This document shows, piece after piece, positions 2,128 through 33,821 of a stretch of DNA of 64,000 nt. A program made the translations under genes and the position numbers. The stretch is from Kosakonia arachidis (GTDB taxonomy: Bacteria; Pseudomonadota; Gammaproteobacteria; Enterobacterales; Enterobacteriaceae), in assembly GCF_900116535.1 (NCBI RefSeq), contig NZ_FPAU01000005.1, forward strand, positions 62,001-126,000, written 5' to 3'. The number at the start of each line of letters is the position of its first letter. Position 1 is the stretch's first letter. The notes beneath the pieces are model-generated. The model was not told where the DNA came from. It worked only from the letters and a program-made list of their open reading frames with translations, and ran no database searches.

Positions 2128-2256
2128 TAGGGACCTGTCTGTCATGTAATTAACAGGATTTATACAAACACAGGATTTCGTCGCCGACAACTGCTTTTTA
2201 CGCACCCGCAGAAAACTGTGCGGTGTATCACGTTTGGTTATGCAGCCGCTGAAAAC

Positions 2257-2331
2257 AAAAAACCTCGCCGGAGCGAGGTTTTCATGCAGTTTTTGCGGTT
2301 GGTGGCCGCAAACACACTACGTTACGTCAAC
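2257..2331 (-). ncRNA. istR: IstR-1 antisense RNA (antitoxin of TisB)
   Basis: A 75-nt RNA is predicted from a promoter with TTGCAC and TATAGT 17 bases apart, a start at the G opposite 2331, and an intrinsic terminator (AACCTCGC/GCGAGGTT followed by T4GT4). Its first bases read GTTGACGTAACGTAGTGTG, close to the 5' end of E. coli IstR-1. The complement of this 5' end recurs in the tisB leader at about 2550-2574 with only wobble differences and one A-C mismatch. That is the known mechanism: IstR-1 pairs with the tisAB leader at the ribosome standby site and blocks toxin synthesis. The location between ilvB and tisB is the E. coli location. Confidence 0.92.
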
Positions 2332-2337
2332 AGGGGA

Positions 2338-2366
2338 ACTATACGCGGAAACAGGCAGTCGTGCAA
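2338..2366 (-). promoter_or_regulatory. Promoter of IstR-1
   Basis: On the minus strand TTGCAC (opposite 2361-2366) and TATAGT (opposite 2338-2343) are separated by exactly 17 bases, with the inferred RNA start 6 bases after the -10 element. This strong constitutive promoter fits a continuously made antitoxin RNA. Confidence 0.82.
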
Positions 2367-2427
2367 TTTTCAGGCGTTTTCTCCCGCATTGAGTATGGAT
2401 CAAGCTCAAAATTTCGTCCAACAAATG

Positions 2428-2457
2428 CTGTATATATAAACAGTATTAATATATACT
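2428..2457 (+). promoter_or_regulatory. LexA operator and SOS promoter of tisB
   Basis: CTGTATATATAAACAG at 2428-2443 differs from the LexA consensus CTGTATATATATACAG at one base. It overlaps the -35 region of a promoter with TATACT at 2452-2457. The SOS response should therefore induce tisB, as in E. coli. Confidence 0.93.
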
Positions 2458-2639
2458 GACCTTGCTAATCAGTGTGCAGGGGCCGCACCTCTACGGCGCA
2501 AACAAGTCCTGGCTGAAACGGGTGGTGCCGTCAGCGCCTTAACCCCTAAGCGAGCACACTGCGTTACGCCAACAACACGGCTGACAACAGGCAGCGGAAA
2601 GGTAAGCCAGCCGGTGCTCCTGAACCAGAGGAGACGCGT

Positions 2640-2729
2640 ATGAGCGGAATGGAACTGTTTATTCTGATCCTGAAACTCATTGTTGCTTTGCTGCAACTGC
2701 TTGAAGCTGTCCTGAAATTCCTGCGTTAA
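2640..2729 (+). CDS. tisB: TisB membrane toxin (type I toxin-antitoxin)
   Basis: A 29-residue hydrophobic peptide, MSGMELFILILKLIVALLQL followed by LEAVLKFLR, with the same length and charge pattern as E. coli TisB (Lys in the membrane helix, acidic residue after the second leucine cluster, basic C terminus). It inserts in the inner membrane, lowers proton motive force and promotes persistence after DNA damage. A good ribosome site (GAGGAG, six bases before ATG) precedes it. The leader carries the IstR-1 target at about 2550-2574, and a LexA box lies 200 bases upstream. No convincing tisA frame is visible in the leader. Confidence 0.95.
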   Translation: MSGMELFILILKLIVALLQLLEAVLKFLR

Positions 2730-2749
2730 TTTAGGTTCAAGCCGCACCA

Positions 2750-2776
2750 AAGAGGGGCGGGCAACCGCCCCTCTTT
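2750..2776 (+). terminator. Intrinsic terminator of tisB
   Basis: A ten-base stem (AGAGGGGCGG with CCGCCCCTCT, loop GCAA) followed by a short T run, 20 bases after the tisB stop codon. Confidence 0.88.
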
Positions 2777-2848
2777 AACATCGTTAATCTGGTATCCGCT
2801 GCGGGAGGCATGTTACATTTTGGTGACAACTCACTCGCCCAGGCCACC

Positions 2849-3682
2849 ATGACACTATCCGTTTTCTGCATTTTGCTGTTTGCAGCTCTGCTTCATGCCA
2901 GCTGGAATGCCATCGTGAAATCCGGCAGTGACAAACTCTATTCGGCGATTGCCGTAAGCGGTTCTGCCGCGCTGATCGCGCTAATTTTATTACCTTTCTC
3001 GCCACAGCCGACGCTCGCCAGCGTGCCTTACCTCGCCGTCTCGTGTGCGTTGCAGGTGGTTTACACGGTGCTGGTGGCGAAAACTTACCAGGTTTCGGAT
3101 ATGAGCCAGACCTATCCGCTGATGCGTGGCACCGCACCGTTGCTGGTGGCGCTTATTAGCGTGTTGATCCTTGGCGATTCACTTTCTGGCGTGGCGTGGG
3201 GCGGTATTGCCGTGATCTGCCTGTCGATACTGGCGATGGCGTTTAACGGACGCATGCAGGCACGCAAAGGGATCTGGCTGGCGCTTATTAATTCAGGGTT
3301 TATCGCGGGTTACACGCTGGTCGATGGCACCGGCGTTCGCCTTGCCGGTTCTGCGCTGGGCTATACATTATGGACTTTTTTCCTTAACGGTTTTTGCCTG
3401 TTGTTCTGGGCGATGCTGGTGCGGCGGCGAGAGGTGACACCTTATCTGCTCGCCAGCTGGAAAAAAGGCATTCCCGGCGGCATTGGCACCATGGGGTCTT
3501 ACGGCCTGGCGCTGTGGGCGATGACGCAAGCGCCGCTGGCGGTCGTCGCTGCGCTGCGCGAAACCTCGATTCTGTTCGGCGCGCTGATTGCGTTTGTTCT
3601 TCTCAAAGAGCAGGTTGCCGGACTACGGATTGTTGCTGCCTGTGGCATTGCCGCTGGCGCGATACTGCTGCGCCTTTCCTGA
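2849..3682 (+). CDS. EamA-family (DMT superfamily) inner-membrane transporter
   Basis: A 277-residue very hydrophobic protein with two repeated EamA units (roughly residues 5-135 and 145-275), together about ten membrane helices. The opening LFAALLHASWNAIVKSG and the segment YPLMRGTAPLLVAL are typical of the family, which exports small metabolites such as amino acids. The substrate cannot be read from the sequence. I took the ATG at 2849, since the open frame from 2810 adds 13 polar residues that overlap the region just after the tisB terminator. It is followed by emrD in the same direction after 177 bases. I do not recall an orthologue at this place in E. coli. Confidence 0.85.
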   Translation: MTLSVFCILLFAALLHASWNAIVKSGSDKLYSAIAVSGSAALIALILLPFSPQPTLASVPYLAVSCALQVVYTVLVAKTYQVSDMSQTYPLMRGTAPLLVALISVLILGDSLSGVAWGGIAVICLSILAMAFNGRMQARKGIWLALINSGFIAGYTLVDGTGVRLAGSALGYTLWTFFLNGFCLLFWAMLVRRREVTPYLLASWKKGIPGGIGTMGSYGLALWAMTQAPLAVVAALRETSILFGALIAFVLLKEQVAGLRIVAACGIAAGAILLRLS

Positions 3683-3859
3683 AGTTCGCTGGCAACAAAA
3701 GTTGCCGAATGTTGTCTATAAAACCTGCCTGTCACCTTCCTGCTTTTGCACCGGGTCATTGTGGTTCTGTCATCTGGTTGTGCTAGATTTCTCCGGCATT
3801 AAGGCTCTATTGCAGCCATATATTCTTTAATTCTTCATTTTTTAAAAGTAATCATCGAC

Positions 3860-5044
3860 ATGAAAAGGCAGAGAAACGTCAATTTGTTATTGATGCTGGT
3901 ACTTCTGGTGACTGTCGGGCAGATGGCGCAAACCATCTATATCCCGGCGATAGCGGATATGGCGCTCACCCTGAATGTTCGCGAAGGCGCGGTGCAAAGC
4001 GTCATGGCAGCATATCTGCTGACTTACGGCGTATCCCAACTCTTCTATGGCCCGCTGGCGGACAGAGTCGGTCGCCGCCCGGTGATCCTTGCCGGGATGG
4101 GCATCTTTTTGCTGGCGACGCTGATCGCTATTACCACGCACAACCTGTCGATGTTAATTCTGGCCAGCGCCTTACAGGGCATCGGCACTGGCGTGGGTGG
4201 CGTGATGGCGCGAACGCTGCCGCGCGATCTGTATGCCGGAACGGAACTGCGTCACGCCAACAGTTTGTTGAATATGGGGATTTTGGTTAGTCCGCTGCTT
4301 GCACCGCTGATTGGTGGCGTGCTGAATACGCTGTTTAACTGGCGCGCCTGTTTTATTTTTCTGCTGGTGCTGTGCCTGGTCGTCACCTGGAGTATGGCGC
4401 GCTGGATGCCGGAAACCCGGCCAAAAGACGCGCCGCGCCTCCGCCTGCTGGCCAGCTATAAAACCCTGTTCGGCAATGGCGCATTTAATTGTTACCTGCT
4501 GATGTTGATTGGCGGTCTGTCCGGGATTGCAGTCTTTGAAGCCAGCTCGGGTGTGTTGATGGGCGGCGTGCTGGGTCTGAACAGCATGATGGTCAGTGTC
4601 CTGTTTATTCTGCCGGTGCCAGCGGCCTTTTTCGGTGCCTGGTTTGCCGGGCGGCAAAACAAGCGCTTTACATCGTTGATGTGGCAGGCAGTGATCTGCT
4701 GCGTGACGGCCGGTCTGATGATGTGGATCCCGGGTATTGTCGGGGTGATGAATATCTGGACACTGGTCGTGCCCGCTGCGCTGTTTTTCTTCGGCGCCGG
4801 GATGCTGTTCCCGCTGGCGACCAGCGGTGCGATGGAGCCATTCCCGTTTCTGGCGGGCACTGCGGGCGCGTTGGTTGGCGGGTTGCAGAACATCGGCTCC
4901 GGCGGCCTGGCATGGCTCTCTTCACAACTGCCGCAGAACGGCCAGTTTAGCCTTGGGATGCTGATGACGCTGGCCGGGCTTTTAATTCTGTTGTGCTGGC
5001 TGCCGCTGGCGACGCGCTTTTCTCGCCATGAACCGGTGATTTAA
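3860..5044 (+). CDS. emrD: Multidrug efflux MFS transporter EmrD
   Basis: A 394-residue protein, the normal length for EmrD, with twelve predicted membrane helices of the major facilitator superfamily. The loop 2-3 signature GPLADRVGRRPVILAGM is present, and the N terminus (MKRQRNVNLLLMLVLLVTVGQMAQ, cytoplasmic basic start, then helix 1) agrees with EmrD. It exports amphipathic compounds and uncouplers by drug/proton antiport. Its last 98 bases are overlapped on the other strand by the 3' end of the hydrolase gene ending at 4947. Confidence 0.94.
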   Translation: MKRQRNVNLLLMLVLLVTVGQMAQTIYIPAIADMALTLNVREGAVQSVMAAYLLTYGVSQLFYGPLADRVGRRPVILAGMGIFLLATLIAITTHNLSMLILASALQGIGTGVGGVMARTLPRDLYAGTELRHANSLLNMGILVSPLLAPLIGGVLNTLFNWRACFIFLLVLCLVVTWSMARWMPETRPKDAPRLRLLASYKTLFGNGAFNCYLLMLIGGLSGIAVFEASSGVLMGGVLGLNSMMVSVLFILPVPAAFFGAWFAGRQNKRFTSLMWQAVICCVTAGLMMWIPGIVGVMNIWTLVVPAALFFFGAGMLFPLATSGAMEPFPFLAGTAGALVGGLQNIGSGGLAWLSSQLPQNGQFSLGMLMTLAGLLILLCWLPLATRFSRHEPVI

Positions 5045-6035
5045 CTTCATGATGGCCCGGCTTTGCATCGGGCTTATCGCACTCCGGCGCAATCATCATT
5101 TTCAGTAACGGCTCCGGCCCTGGTCGCCATGCGCCTTCTTCCCCATCATAAAATTGCGTATCGGTATTGATCGCATAGGGAATTTTCACCTTACTGAGTT
5201 CGCAAGCCATAAAATGGGCAAAAGCCATTTGCGATTCGGTGGGTGCATTTTTAATGGATTCGCCTACCGCCCAGCCGCCAACCCAACTGGCATGCCCGGA
5301 TTTCTGCTGCCAGCGCACCGCTGTATTGATCCGCGCGCGGATGGCGGCTTTTTCCGCCGCCGTGCCCGATGTCCACGGATATTTACCGCTATTTTTCTGT
5401 GGCCCCCACGGGAAAATGTGCCACTCGGCTAACAGATAGTTCTGGCTGTGCGGCGGCAGCTTCAGCGAGGAGAGATCTTCTGGCGCGGCGCGCAGACGCG
5501 GGGCAATAAAAATCATGCGTTGAGCGTCGATATCATGCAGGGTGCGCACGACATTTTCATAGGCGCGATTTAATGCGGGTAAATCACGGTTAAGTTTCTC
5601 AGCCGGTTCATAAATCACATCAAAACCGAGCGTCGGGTGCCCGGTACCGAAAAAGTTCGCTACCGTTGACCACCATGCCACCAGCTGCGCTTCGTTTTTG
5701 GCGTCAGGATCGGCTTTGAAGCTGTCTGCCTGATAGGCAATCACCGGGATCATCCCATACTGTTCGCAGGCCTCCACCAGTTTACGCAGGTGGATCAGGC
5801 GCGCCTCCGTCATGTTATCTGCAACGCGAATGCGCACATGACGGATACCGGCGTCGTAGAAATCACGCACGATCAGCGGGTCGAACTCGCGGATACCACG
5901 ATCGGTACGCGCCCAGTCGACATCCATCCCCACCCCCAGCTTTTGCGCATATTGCGCCGCCGTCAGCGGAGTATCAGCGGCAAACACAGCGGTTCCCGCC
6001 AACAGCATAACAACTGCAATCAGTGGCTTTAACAC
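4947..6035 (-). CDS. Secreted cellulase-like glycoside hydrolase (GH5-type)
   Basis: A protein of about 362 residues with a cleavable signal peptide (LKPLIAVVMLLAGTAVFA, then ADTP) and a TIM-barrel-like body. VIYEPAE resembles the beta-4 acid/base motif of GH5 cellulases (usually NEP, here YEP). AEWHIFPWG resembles the strand with the conserved His, and GGWAVGES could hold the nucleophile. The C-terminal 45 residues are low-complexity (Ala, Ser, Lys, Pro). I prefer the GTG start at 6035, which has AAGG six bases upstream and gives a compact signal peptide. The ATG at 6068 has no visible ribosome site. The 3' end runs 98 bases into emrD on the other strand. Hydrolase fold is likely; the exact substrate is unknown. 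Confidence 0.72.
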   Translation of the reverse strand: MLKPLIAVVMLLAGTAVFAADTPLTAAQYAQKLGVGMDVDWARTDRGIREFDPLIVRDFYDAGIRHVRIRVADNMTEARLIHLRKLVEACEQYGMIPVIAYQADSFKADPDAKNEAQLVAWWSTVANFFGTGHPTLGFDVIYEPAEKLNRDLPALNRAYENVVRTLHDIDAQRMIFIAPRLRAAPEDLSSLKLPPHSQNYLLAEWHIFPWGPQKNSGKYPWTSGTAAEKAAIRARINTAVRWQQKSGHASWVGGWAVGESIKNAPTESQMAFAHFMACELSKVKIPYAINTDTQFYDGEEGAWRPGPEPLLKMMIAPECDKPDAKPGHHEVKSPVHGEKSASPAAASTTELKARPASSASQG

Positions 6036-32061: not shown

Positions 32062-32178
32062 GCAACGCCATGGAATAAGGAACAACAGAGATCGGAATGA
32101 CTCGAACGCTAACACGATAAATTCACCTGCGGAAATGGGGTTAAGCGTTCATTTGCCGTTCTGATTGCTGAATAAGCG

Positions 32179-32207
32179 ATGCAGTATGCCTGATACTCAT
32201 ACTGCAT
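32179..32207. terminator. Stem-loop between cbrC and symE
   Basis: ATGCAGTATG pairs perfectly with CATACTGCAT around a nine-base loop, in the 185-base gap between convergent cbrC and symE. It is followed by TTTCATT on the plus strand. It may end both transcripts. I see nothing else in this gap. Confidence 0.65.
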
Positions 32208-32246
32208 TTCATTAGCGCAGCCACCATGAAGAGAGTGAAAGGGCGC

Positions 32247-32555
32247 TCAGTTAGGCTTTGATTGCAGATAGGCGTTTTTCATAACGCTTTTCACTTCCCT
32301 GAGCTGTCTGCGGGTTTTATCCAGTTCGCTTGCCAGCCACTCTTCCTTCTCGCTGTGTTTGATTAATACGATGCAGCCCTGCATCACCTTCACCAGCAAA
32401 TGTTGCCCGGTATCAAACCCGGCATCGCGAAGCCATTTGCCGGAAAGAGTAATGCACGGTGTACTGGTGTCGCCCTGATTCGGGCGATAGCGCACAATTA
32501 CACTGTGCTCGGTTCCGGTGGGCGTGAAGTCTGGGGTAGAATGCGGATCAGCCAT
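32247..32555 (-). CDS. symE: SymE-family toxin (AbrB-fold)
   Basis: A 102-residue protein of the SymE family. The core TPCITLSGKWLRDAGFDTGQ continues into HLLVKVMQGCIVLI, an AbrB/SpoVT-like swapped-hairpin fold also seen in antitoxins. E. coli SymE is an SOS-induced RNA-cleaving or nucleoid-condensing toxin held down by the antisense RNA SymR. The ATG at 32555 has a strong ribosome site (AAGGAG, six bases upstream). No LexA box is visible upstream, unlike E. coli symE. An antisense RNA cannot be assigned with certainty. It is divergent from the ribbon-helix-helix gene. Confidence 0.82.
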   Translation of the reverse strand: MADPHSTPDFTPTGTEHSVIVRYRPNQGDTSTPCITLSGKWLRDAGFDTGQHLLVKVMQGCIVLIKHSEKEEWLASELDKTRRQLREVKSVMKNAYLQSKPN

Positions 32556-32589
32556 TATCAACTCCTTGATAGTTGGGGATGGTTAGACG

Positions 32590-32625
32590 CTCCGGTTGTG
32601 TTCCTGCACTTTCGGGGCGTCGCAA
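32590..32625. other. Stem-loop in the symE leader region
   Basis: GACGCTCCG and CGGGGCGTC form a nine-base stem (one G-T pair) with a long loop, upstream of symE on its coding strand. It could shape the symE leader RNA or an opposing antisense RNA. Neither strand shows a T tract after it. Confidence 0.45.
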
Positions 32626-32645
32626 TGATAGGAAGGATTGCTTTT

Positions 32646-32688
32646 AGGTGGCCTCCTATAAGGTGAGAATAGTTAAATAGGTGGCCCC
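32646..32688 (+). promoter_or_regulatory. Possible operator repeats before the ribbon-helix-helix gene
   Basis: AGGTGGCCTCCT at 32646-32657 is a near-palindrome, and AGGTGGCC recurs at 32679-32686, where it also serves as the ribosome site of the gene at 32689. Short palindromes of this kind are typical binding sites of ribbon-helix-helix autorepressors. The assignment is inferred from position and symmetry only. Confidence 0.35.
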
Positions 32689-32880
32689 ATGTCAACCATA
32701 TCACGCGAGAAAAAACCGAAAGGCGGTGGTCAGTCACCCCAGTTCAAAATGCGTATTGATCCGGCGTTGAAGGAACAGCTCGATGCTGTAGCAGCAGAAG
32801 AAGGGGTAAGCCTCGCCAGTTGGTTAAAAGAGCTGGCGAGGGAGGCTTTGCGGGCTAAGGGGATATCTCCAAAAGGGTGA
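32689..32880 (+). CDS. Small ribbon-helix-helix DNA-binding protein (antitoxin-like)
   Basis: A 63-residue protein with a basic, disordered N terminus (MSTISREKKPKGGGQSP) and a compact ribbon-helix-helix. The strand is QFKMRIDP, helix A ALKEQLDAVAAEEG, and helix B SLASWLKELAREALRAKG. The fold is that of Arc/MetJ-like repressors and of HicB- or ParD-type antitoxins. Base composition is like the core genome, unlike the next gene. It precedes the TIR gene by 32 bases in the same direction and is divergent from symE. It could be the local repressor or an antitoxin; no classical toxin partner is adjacent. Confidence 0.75.
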   Translation: MSTISREKKPKGGGQSPQFKMRIDPALKEQLDAVAAEEGVSLASWLKELAREALRAKGISPKG

Positions 32881-32912
32881 CTTAATTAGTTAAAATATTT
32901 AGTGGAGTATTT

Positions 32913-33695
32913 ATGGTAATTGGAGAAGGCGATTATGGTGTTGTGAAAATAACAGGTGGTCAATTTAAAGGAAAGATTGTTTATTATGATGATGATGCAT
33001 TTGTAGAAAAAGAATATGATGATGTTGAAGAAGACGGATATTATGCAATAGTCTATTTTGGTAATTTCTTTGTTTCTCCAACCCACTGTTATATTCCACA
33101 TTATTTTTTAGAGCATGTGACGATAAATGATTTAATGAGTCGAAAAGATGAGCTTTATCGCCTTTGCGCACTATTTGAATTAAGACAATCTGTGCAAGGG
33201 GATTTAACAGAGTATTTGTCTGAGTTACATTTAGTAGAGACATATCTTTTAGAAAAACTTGTCGAACAACGATATGAGAGAAAACAAACTGGTTCCAAGA
33301 TTTTCATTTCACATTCATCTTTTGATAAGCCTTTTGCTAAAAAACTATGTATGGATCTAGAAGCGAATGGATTTGTCCCATGGTTAGATGAATGGGAAAT
33401 TAGTGTTGGAGAATCTATTCCTGAAAAAATCTCCTCAGGTTTGCATGATGCCGATTTTATTATCGTGATTTTATCTGAGAATTCTGTAAATTCAAAATGG
33501 GTAGAACGCGAATGGCAGATAAAATATTGGTCTGAAATAGAAAGTGGTAATGTAAATGTTCTTCCTCTTTTATACCAAGATTGTGTTATTCCTGACCTTT
33601 TAAAAACAAGAAAATATGCCGATTTTAGAACTGATTTTAATCAAGGATTGCATGACTTGATAAATGCATTGAGATATCTATCAAATAAAAAATGA
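32913..33695 (+). CDS. TIR-domain protein with N-terminal KOW/SH3-like domain
   Basis: A 260-residue protein. Residues 1-75 look like a small beta-barrel ([23 protein letters not shown]-like), 76-125 are helical, and about 128-225 form a TIR domain. The TIR motifs are [16 protein letters not shown] (box 1), [17 protein letters not shown] (BB-loop region) and SKWVEREW. Glu200 in the last motif is at the place of the catalytic Glu of NAD-cleaving TIR domains. Bacterial TIR proteins of this type act in antiphage immunity or as NADases. The gene is very AT-rich compared with both sides and ends 31 bases before the 3' end of selC, which indicates transfer. GGAG lies six bases before the ATG. Partner and trigger are unknown. 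Confidence 0.85.
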
Positions 33696-33726
33696 CCTGC
33701 ATTCAACGATATGGTTTAGGCAACTT

Positions 33727-33821
33727 TGGCGGAAGATCACAGGAGTCGAACCTGCCCGGGACCGCTGGCGGCCCCAACTGGATTTGAAGTCCAGCCACCT
33801 CACCGGAGATGACGATCTTCC
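33727..33821 (-). tRNA. selC: Selenocysteine tRNA (anticodon UCA)
   Basis: A 95-nt tRNA with the long acceptor/T stem and large extra arm typical of tRNA-Sec. The 5' end reads GGAAGATCGTCATCTCCGGT, the anticodon loop CTTCAAA contains TCA, and the gene encodes the terminal CCA. It differs from E. coli selC at very few positions. It carries selenocysteine to UGA codons with SelB. Its 3' end faces the TIR/RHH/symE segment, and selC 3' ends are frequent integration sites of genomic islands. Confidence 0.98.

Follow-up and report, generated by a model that had tools for sequence, protein, structure and literature searches.

Why should a gene for a TIR-domain protein be packed between a small ribbon-helix-helix (RHH) gene and the 3' end of selC? 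The question is raised by a stretch of 64,000 nucleotides from Kosakonia arachidis (contig NZ_FPAU01000005.1, positions 62,001 to 126,000 of the forward strand), hereafter called the window. The TIR gene (32913..33695, plus strand) is an open reading frame (ORF) of 260 amino acids starting at ATG. It lies 32 bases behind the RHH gene (32689..32880, plus strand, 63 amino acids), and its stop codon is separated by 31 bases from the 3' end of selC (33727..33821, minus strand), as located by ORF calls and ARAGORN. A SymE-like gene (32247..32561, minus strand, 104 amino acids), identified with Pfam, is divergent from the RHH gene and forms the left part of what we call the head. We consider it probable that this control head and the selC 3' end bound a swappable slot with the TIR gene as its cargo, and that the TIR gene would encode a single-gene abortive-infection effector of the TIR-NADase kind.

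The TIR protein and its relatives

The TIR protein was predicted by AlphaFold2 to consist of three parts, all encoded on the plus strand: a five-stranded KOW/SH3-like barrel (codons 9-68, 32937..33116), a two-helix hairpin (codons 71-122, 33123..33278, with helices at 71-91 and 95-122) and a TIR fold (codons 129-259, 33297..33689). The full-length model had a predicted local distance difference test score (pLDDT) of 76.9 and a predicted TM-score (pTM) of 0.50; residues 1-127 modelled alone yielded identical elements with values of 79.1 and 0.73, respectively. Assignment of the TIR domain is also based on Pfam, alignment and fold comparison. The Pfam family TIR_2 matched residues 130-249 with an E-value of 3.6e-31, exceeding its cut-off, and residues 128-260 were superimposed on the TIR domains of two defence systems, SPARTA (Z 15.9, 3.0 A over 131 residues) and Cat1 (Z 13.8, 2.1 A over 118 residues). 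With a viral fold library, a Toll-like receptor and one further match reached E 0.001 or better.

Residue 200 is a glutamate (codon 33510-33512, plus strand) located within the TIR domain in the motif WVEREW. It is aligned with a glutamate of the solved AbTir TIR domain that we take to be catalytic in AbTir, and it is invariant in all 11 aligned TIR sequences, window included. The other invariant residues of this alignment include S133, S136, D138, W157, D159, E160, W196, E198 and W201. Judged by its family and by this conserved glutamate, the TIR protein is most likely a single-gene effector of abortive infection that works by degrading NAD+.

The N-terminal part is more difficult to assign. 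No Pfam family was detected in residues 1-100 at an E-value of 1 or better, and a PDB sequence search with the N-terminal part returned a single match up to E 1, at 0.79. Searching the PDB with the barrel using Foldseek gave DSIF as best match, with an E-value of 0.092 and nothing lower, and VIA-align scored the barrel against the KOW chains of DSIF, Spt5 and NusG with Z values of 6.3-6.8, tied with or under those of unrelated chains. Because this likeness is weak, we treat the KOW assignment as a lead and not as a finding. With that qualification, the picture drawn in an earlier note on this DNA, which gave the coordinates and both gaps and described a KOW/SH3-like N-terminus, a helical linker and a TIR domain with Glu200 as candidate catalytic residue, was confirmed by the ORF calls, ARAGORN, Pfam, AlphaFold2 and the alignment. 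The AT-richness that it had noticed was found as well: the guanine-plus-cytosine (GC) content of the TIR gene is 0.32 and that of the surrounding region about 0.5, the 1-kb windows covering most of the gene having values of 0.38 and 0.40 and the remaining ones 0.46-0.60. By eye, the gene is preceded by a ribosome-binding-site-like GGAG of its own.

Full-length TIR genes are rare. Among 392 genomes of the Enterobacteriaceae, 3 carry the full-length gene and 17 have a TIR match of any kind. RHH matches at E 1e-3 or better were detected in 102 of the same genomes (18 with at least 70% identity), many of the weaker ones occupying prophage- or satellite-like settings; within the genus, 8 of 15 genomes have an RHH match, 5 of them at 94% identity or more. 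In the three genomes concerned (the window's, G179 and G422), the gap between the RHH gene and the TIR gene, which is co-oriented with it and followed by selC, measures 32, 24 and 37 bases, respectively. The G179 protein (locus L091) is 60% identical to that of the window, and both reading frames are intact. In G422 (L097/L005), the gene behind the RHH gene is divided into two reading frames, split at the joint between the N-terminal part and the TIR domain, which reflects either a decayed copy or a sequencing fault.

TIR genes were also found elsewhere with no RHH match nearby. G561 and G674, two other Enterobacterales identified among 394 genomes, carry a TIR gene at 49-50% identity; within about 4 kb of it, neither an RHH match nor a tRNA gene was found. 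A contig scan recovered nine loci with a full or near-full length TIR gene (L023-L030 and L032) in Proteobacteria, Actinobacteria and a planctomycete bin, namely in Neptuniibacter, Achromobacter, Rhodoferax, Denitromonas, a betaproteobacterial bin, two Saccharopolyspora species, Nocardia and the planctomycete bin. The N-terminal part of the Neptuniibacter gene is in a different frame and one Saccharopolyspora gene has an in-frame stop. At these nine loci, no RHH match was detected at E 0.01 in the fetched stretches, some of which extend only a few hundred bases upstream, and by eye the neighbouring genes look unrelated.

Plasmids and phages were rejected as homes of the full-length gene, since none of the 34 matching plasmid records and none of the 4 matching phage records covered more than 80% of the query. 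The longest plasmid match covered 65% of it, corresponding to a DUF1883-annotated Rhodococcus protein with 29.5% identity that reaches back to residue 55. A pattern scan of viral contigs retrieved no relative. In E. coli, the locus was matched in 5374 of 5426 genomes (selC among the matches listed), none of the matches covering 80% of the locus; the RHH region was matched in 11 of the 5426, with 60-80% identity.

On this distribution (RHH in 102 of 392 genomes vs full-length TIR in 3, and TIR genes elsewhere with no RHH match in the fetched stretches), the RHH and TIR genes were rejected as a conserved pair. The earlier note had proposed the RHH protein as partner of the TIR protein, in the role of repressor, sensor or antitoxin, and had itself named an RHH gene conserved without the TIR gene in nearly all relatives as evidence to the contrary; this is what was found for the pair, and a dedicated role of this kind is not supported.

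A slot with variable cargo

What then occupies the place of the TIR gene in other genomes? Homology breakpoints, a comparison within the genus and clustering together delimit a cargo slot (32881..33726) whose left edge is the 3' end of the RHH gene and whose right edge is the 3' end of selC; it holds the TIR gene in the window and other genes in relatives. In a comparison of the window DNA with that of 15 other heads, 14 had a left homology block ending near the RHH stop codon, at 32828-32884; the exception is L097, which carries the same TIR cargo. The right homology block started at 33722-33727, at the selC 3' end, in all nine loci having other cargo and a right block. For L085, this block consists of a copy of the selC core only, its selC lying further away, and no right block was found within the fetched stretch in L086, L089, L090 and L095. 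Among the 20 heads whose RHH is at least 71% identical (window included), ARAGORN located selC within the stretch in 11.

The same picture was obtained within the genus. All 15 genomes contain selC, and 11 show a SymE match on its cargo side (partial in G010); among the four others, G006 and G007 were read over about 1.5 kb only. Six SymE-bearing slots also have an RHH match (G000, G003, G005, G011, G013 and G014), and G004 and G009 have an RHH-like ORF without a match at the selC slot. Ten genus slots, G010 being left out, displayed seven different contents and one empty slot: TIR; DUF6680; a protein of 191/196 residues (two slots); Schlafen and others; a GmrSD/NsnA-like gene; an AAA ATPase with insertion-sequence-like genes; and a protein of 130/160 residues (two slots). 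The empty slot is that of G011, where 112 bases separate the RHH-like gene from selC with no ORF of 70 amino acids or more in between. Clustering of 53 slot and nearby proteins, some left-of-head genes included, produced 44 groups, the TIR group having 3 members.

The selC 3' core (33727..33746) is duplicated in some relatives in the manner of an attachment site, with exact second copies in L083 and L085 and imperfect ones in L090 and L092. In addition, L091 (G179) contains two selC-like copies, at +839 and +1364 relative to the RHH stop codon (RHH-forward orientation), which are 97% and 79% identical to the window selC and both exceed the Rfam tRNA-Sec threshold. These duplicated cores and copies are consistent with integration at selC; the selC 3' end had already been suggested as an insertion site by the earlier note, and the duplicated cores and the genus comparison bear this out. 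Separately, a 51-base match to window positions 32108-32157 was noticed in L088 (G309) at +4520 to +4570 from the RHH stop codon, just before selC; in the window, these positions lie left of SymE.

We then examined the cargo for known defence genes by comparison with PADLOC at 17 loci, the genes behind the head being picked by low GC content and position, not blindly. L083, L090, L091 and L097 were left out. A cargo gene matched PADLOC at 1e-10 or better in 9 of the 17 loci, window TIR included. Restricted to cargo starting within 120 bases of the RHH gene, matches were obtained in 5 of the 10 tested loci. As a control, genes located left of the heads and picked by hand gave 1 match out of 10, a RhuM-type fragment (PDC-S05). 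L115 (G298, 3376-5685) encodes a full-length Avs5 (1462.6 bits over 1-769). Directly behind the RHH gene of L095 (G343, 2240-4085) are a type II-A retron reverse transcriptase (3.9e-102) and NDT (6.1e-56), the retron effector also exceeding the NCBIfam St85-family cut-off. The other matches are PDC-S19 in L087 (3e-69), a ThsA-like SIR2 protein in L098 (2.9e-17), PDC-S31 in L100 (1.3e-42), NsnA in L138 (4.4e-71), PDC-M29A in L140 (2.4e-32) and, in L089, a CHAT protein matching part of PDC-S66 (5.5e-14), which begins 2.1 kb behind the RHH gene with other genes intervening. These matches give an indication that slot cargo is often defensive; because the genes were hand-picked and the sample is small, they do not amount to a measured enrichment.

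Two further observations concern the surroundings of the slots. RhuM-type genes or fragments stand by the heads of L084 (G003) and L092 (G094), left of SymE or behind RHH, and G004, G009 and G011 have ORFs resembling RhuM-type genes, RhuM being the PADLOC candidate PDC-S05. On the far side of selC, L094 (G274) carries a dCTP deaminase defence gene (4097-5605, PADLOC 3e-173); lying beyond selC, it was excluded from the above count.

The proposed control head

If the RHH protein is not the partner of the TIR protein, what does it control? The SymE-like gene, absent from the finding of the earlier note, proved important here. Its product matched Pfam SymE_toxin (PF08845) at 4.5e-15 with 55.9 bits, for a cut-off of 29, and scored 54.9 against the stricter PRK13605 model, below its cut-off of 132. 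Over the SymE start, an antisense match to the complete Rfam symR model (32550..32624, plus strand, model positions 1-77 of 77) was detected with 30.9 bits and an E-value of 9.2e-4, the gathering score being 61; a hairpin is discernible by eye in this stretch in 20 aligned heads. On the opposite strand (32548-32622, minus), a sub-threshold match to an R1162-like plasmid antisense RNA was also recorded (30.0 bits vs 55). A LexA box belongs to the SymE/SymR type I toxin-antitoxin system; with up to 1 mismatch, no LexA-like site was matched in 32550-32700. The head resembles E. coli SymE/SymR by its SymE domain, with a candidate SymR-like RNA match at the expected place, and differs from it by scores below the Rfam symR and PRK13605 cut-offs and by having predicted RHH operators, with no LexA-like site found, at its promoter.

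Two copies of the motif TAGGTGGCC are present about 33 bases apart upstream of the RHH gene. They correspond to predicted operator 1, TAGGTGGCCTCCTA (32645..32658), directly before a TATAAG element, and predicted operator 2, TAGGTGGCCCC (32678..32688), which abuts the RHH start codon. The motif varies with the RHH subgroup, being for example GGTACGTACCTA or GTGACCACCTA, as is expected of an autorepressor and its operator. The spacing of about 33 bases is found in many heads, the upstream copy being poor or absent in some loci, e.g. L088. A wider RHH regulon was rejected: searched with its 14 bases and up to 1 mismatch, operator 1 has a single site in its own genome, the local one, and reversed-pattern controls gave 6 and 9.

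A SymE promoter is predicted at 32666..32695 on the minus strand, with a -35 box TTGACA (32695-32690), a -10 box TATTCT (32671-32666), a spacer of 18 and 10 of 12 consensus matches. Its -10 box lies between the operators and its -35 box overlaps the RHH start codon. As the promoter scan returned 5 promoter-like sites vs 3.8 expected, this match is weak by itself; relatives place the -35 box at the corresponding position. TGTCAA directly follows the first base of the start codon (ATG, GTG or TTG) in 35 of 39 RHH loci, i.e. the 41 RHH loci minus L106 and L114, whose start was not assigned; it is missing in L090, L096, L105 and L121. The Ser2 codon is TCA in 35 of 35 cases vs 34 of 146 for the other RHH serines. 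Together, these biases point to a constraint on DNA rather than on protein.

The RHH protein matched Pfam HicB (PF05534) with 22.8 bits for a cut-off of 21, and the Arc repressor in the PDB at 0.034. No HicA toxin was found by Pfam next to the RHH gene, whose two neighbours are the SymE-like and TIR genes. The RHH protein fits better as a predicted repressor acting on its own gene and on the divergent SymE promoter, and it may control the TIR gene only through read-through.

The head is most likely a phage or satellite control module, because homologous heads sit in P2-like and satellite-like settings. In L154 (NZ_CP045250.1), the head is beside an ogr gene in P2-like surroundings, and likewise in L093. 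In L156 (NZ_CP069874.1), it lies beside AlpA, KilAC and Icd-like genes on a 16-kb record containing integrase, capsid and terminase genes, which we read as a satellite. At some loci, the place of SymE is taken by a gene encoding 169-182 residues, with no match in Pfam, or by an annotated Icd-like gene; PMC10111431 was discarded as a source on the latter, the icd that it describes being a different gene. The draft genome G026 contains nine matches to the SymE-like protein.

Function, rival explanations and known systems

How could the locus work as a whole? From its layout and conservation, the RHH protein would bind the two predicted operators, which would cover both promoters of the head, and hold down its own gene and SymE. 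The TIR gene would probably be transcribed by read-through from the RHH promoter, and its product would act alone. Judging from what is known of the family, the KOW-like barrel and the hairpin might respond to a phage component or to a disturbance of transcription or translation by the phage, upon which the TIR domains would assemble, Glu200 would catalyse NAD+ cleavage and the infected cell would stop growing. Exchange of cargo would proceed either through integration at the 3' end of selC or through recombination involving the conserved flanks on both sides.

Several observations weigh against this reading. The slot of the window holds no integrase and only a single selC core copy, so that the TIR cargo may equally well have arrived as a replacement, by recombination between selC and the conserved head. 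A promoter scan of 32200-32912 found no forward promoter for the RHH and TIR genes, and residues 162-169 of the TIR-protein model have a pLDDT below 50. G008 and G012 have SymE with no RHH match. The slot genes of L082, L084, L085, L086, L088, L093, L094 and L118 had no PADLOC match at 1e-10, and not every one of the clearest known systems is found at selC: L095 and L100 lack selC in the fetched stretch, and in L115 a diverged RHH gene (61% identity) is separated by 2.3 kb and intervening genes from the start of the Avs5 gene, selC lying beyond. Finally, judged by the first low-GC ORF of 120 amino acids or more, cargo is co-oriented with the RHH gene in 11 of 17 heads and opposite in 6, and it is opposite in G004, G008, G009 and G012 too. 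As cargo is often opposite to the RHH gene, control by the RHH protein is not a general property of the slot.

Other explanations were weighed on the same evidence. The head could be a captured phage or satellite repressor used as a tripwire: the RHH protein would silence SymE and the co-oriented cargo until an incoming P2-like phage or satellite with the same operators titrated or inactivated it, switching on the toxin and the defence gene of the slot, which would then be a regulated docking site where cargo is exchanged and the trigger kept. We regard this scenario as unlikely. It is rather unlikely that the locus is no more than the decayed terminus of a single satellite or P2-like prophage at selC, with the TIR gene a leftover under no particular selection. 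Homologous heads do occur in satellite- and prophage-like settings, the integrase is no longer present at the window locus and the G422 copy is split between two frames, but identical slot edges recur with unrelated cargo in other species, and the TIR frames of the window and G179, 60% identical, are both intact. A dedicated two-gene unit, in which the RHH protein is a specific repressor or antitoxin that releases the TIR protein on infection, would account for the short co-oriented gaps in the three Enterobacteriaceae slots and for the predicted operators upstream of the RHH gene. We nevertheless consider it quite improbable, as most of the heads read have some other gene behind the RHH gene, the fetched stretches around TIR genes elsewhere, of which some are short, contain no RHH match, and the conserved DNA at the RHH start suits a divergent SymE promoter.

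That the TIR protein makes a Thoeris-like signal for a distant ThsA-type effector appears very improbable. The protein has weak ThsB-like matches, and two proteins of its own genome give partial matches to the ThsA model (positions 86-260 and 21-199 of a profile of 478); these are encoded on other contigs, the slot contains no effector gene and the neighbours of the distant TIR copies share, by eye, no evident relationship. Some bacterial TIR proteins act outside the cell, and the TIR protein might by analogy serve as an adaptor or be directed at other organisms and not be an NADase immune effector; with the candidate catalytic glutamate conserved and defence genes often occupying the slot, this is scarcely credible. 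Our preferred reading remains that of slot cargo acting on its own, and the sequence evidence agrees with the earlier note in describing a compact, probably defensive TIR gene.

We also compared the TIR protein with known systems. SpbK, a TIR protein of the B. subtilis mobile element ICEBs1, is reportedly part of an NAD-degrading anti-phage system; like it, the window gene encodes a TIR protein, but the PADLOC spbK model covers residues 97-146 only (4.5e-5). The best PADLOC match was PDC-S66 (1.1e-19), a profile of 282 positions that was matched by residues 118-219 only and not over its full length; its positions 3-137 match the L089 CHAT protein instead. The TIR domain is similar to that of Retron-TIR (type XII; NCBIfam 1.9e-17 over 119-235), but the window protein has no reverse transcriptase part and reaches 63 bits for a cut-off of 600. 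Unlike in Thoeris, the neighbours of the TIR gene are RHH, SymE-like and selC, with no ThsA effector gene beside it. The matches to TIR-STING, TIR-SAVED and TIR-pAgo (SPARTA) in Pfam and PADLOC cover the TIR part only, residues 1-127 being predicted as barrel and hairpin. The earlier note had likewise held the N-terminal part to be unlike those of Thoeris and these three systems, which Pfam, PADLOC and AlphaFold2 corroborate.

Defence hotspots linked to tRNA genes and satellites are already known. Those of P2/P4 elements (PMC9122126), E. coli (PMC10121019) and P. aeruginosa cDHS1 (PMC10250203) have fixed edges and variable cargo, often at tRNA sites, and the symE toxin is reported to be common in cDHS1 (PMC10250203). 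In the passages concerned, an RHH-SymE head was not found, and selC does not occur in the three texts. The TIR-NLR of P4-like satellites, described in PMC9122126, is a single-gene TIR defence in a satellite hotspot; it has STAND and TPR parts, whereas the window protein has a KOW-like barrel and a hairpin. Among the open-licence papers listed by the searches, no description was found of an RHH-SymE head with a selC slot or of a KOW-hairpin-TIR architecture, and the main text of PMC13092281 contains no TIR, SH3 or KOW.

If our reading is true, the stretch behind the RHH head, at selC and elsewhere, would be a place to seek new defence genes in Enterobacteriaceae. Several of its occupants match known or candidate systems, and those matching nothing would be good defence candidates. 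The conserved head suggests how a control module of phage type can be retained even as different genes come to lie behind it. The TIR family would add a KOW-like input part to single-gene TIR defence, making a trigger linked to transcription or translation testable.

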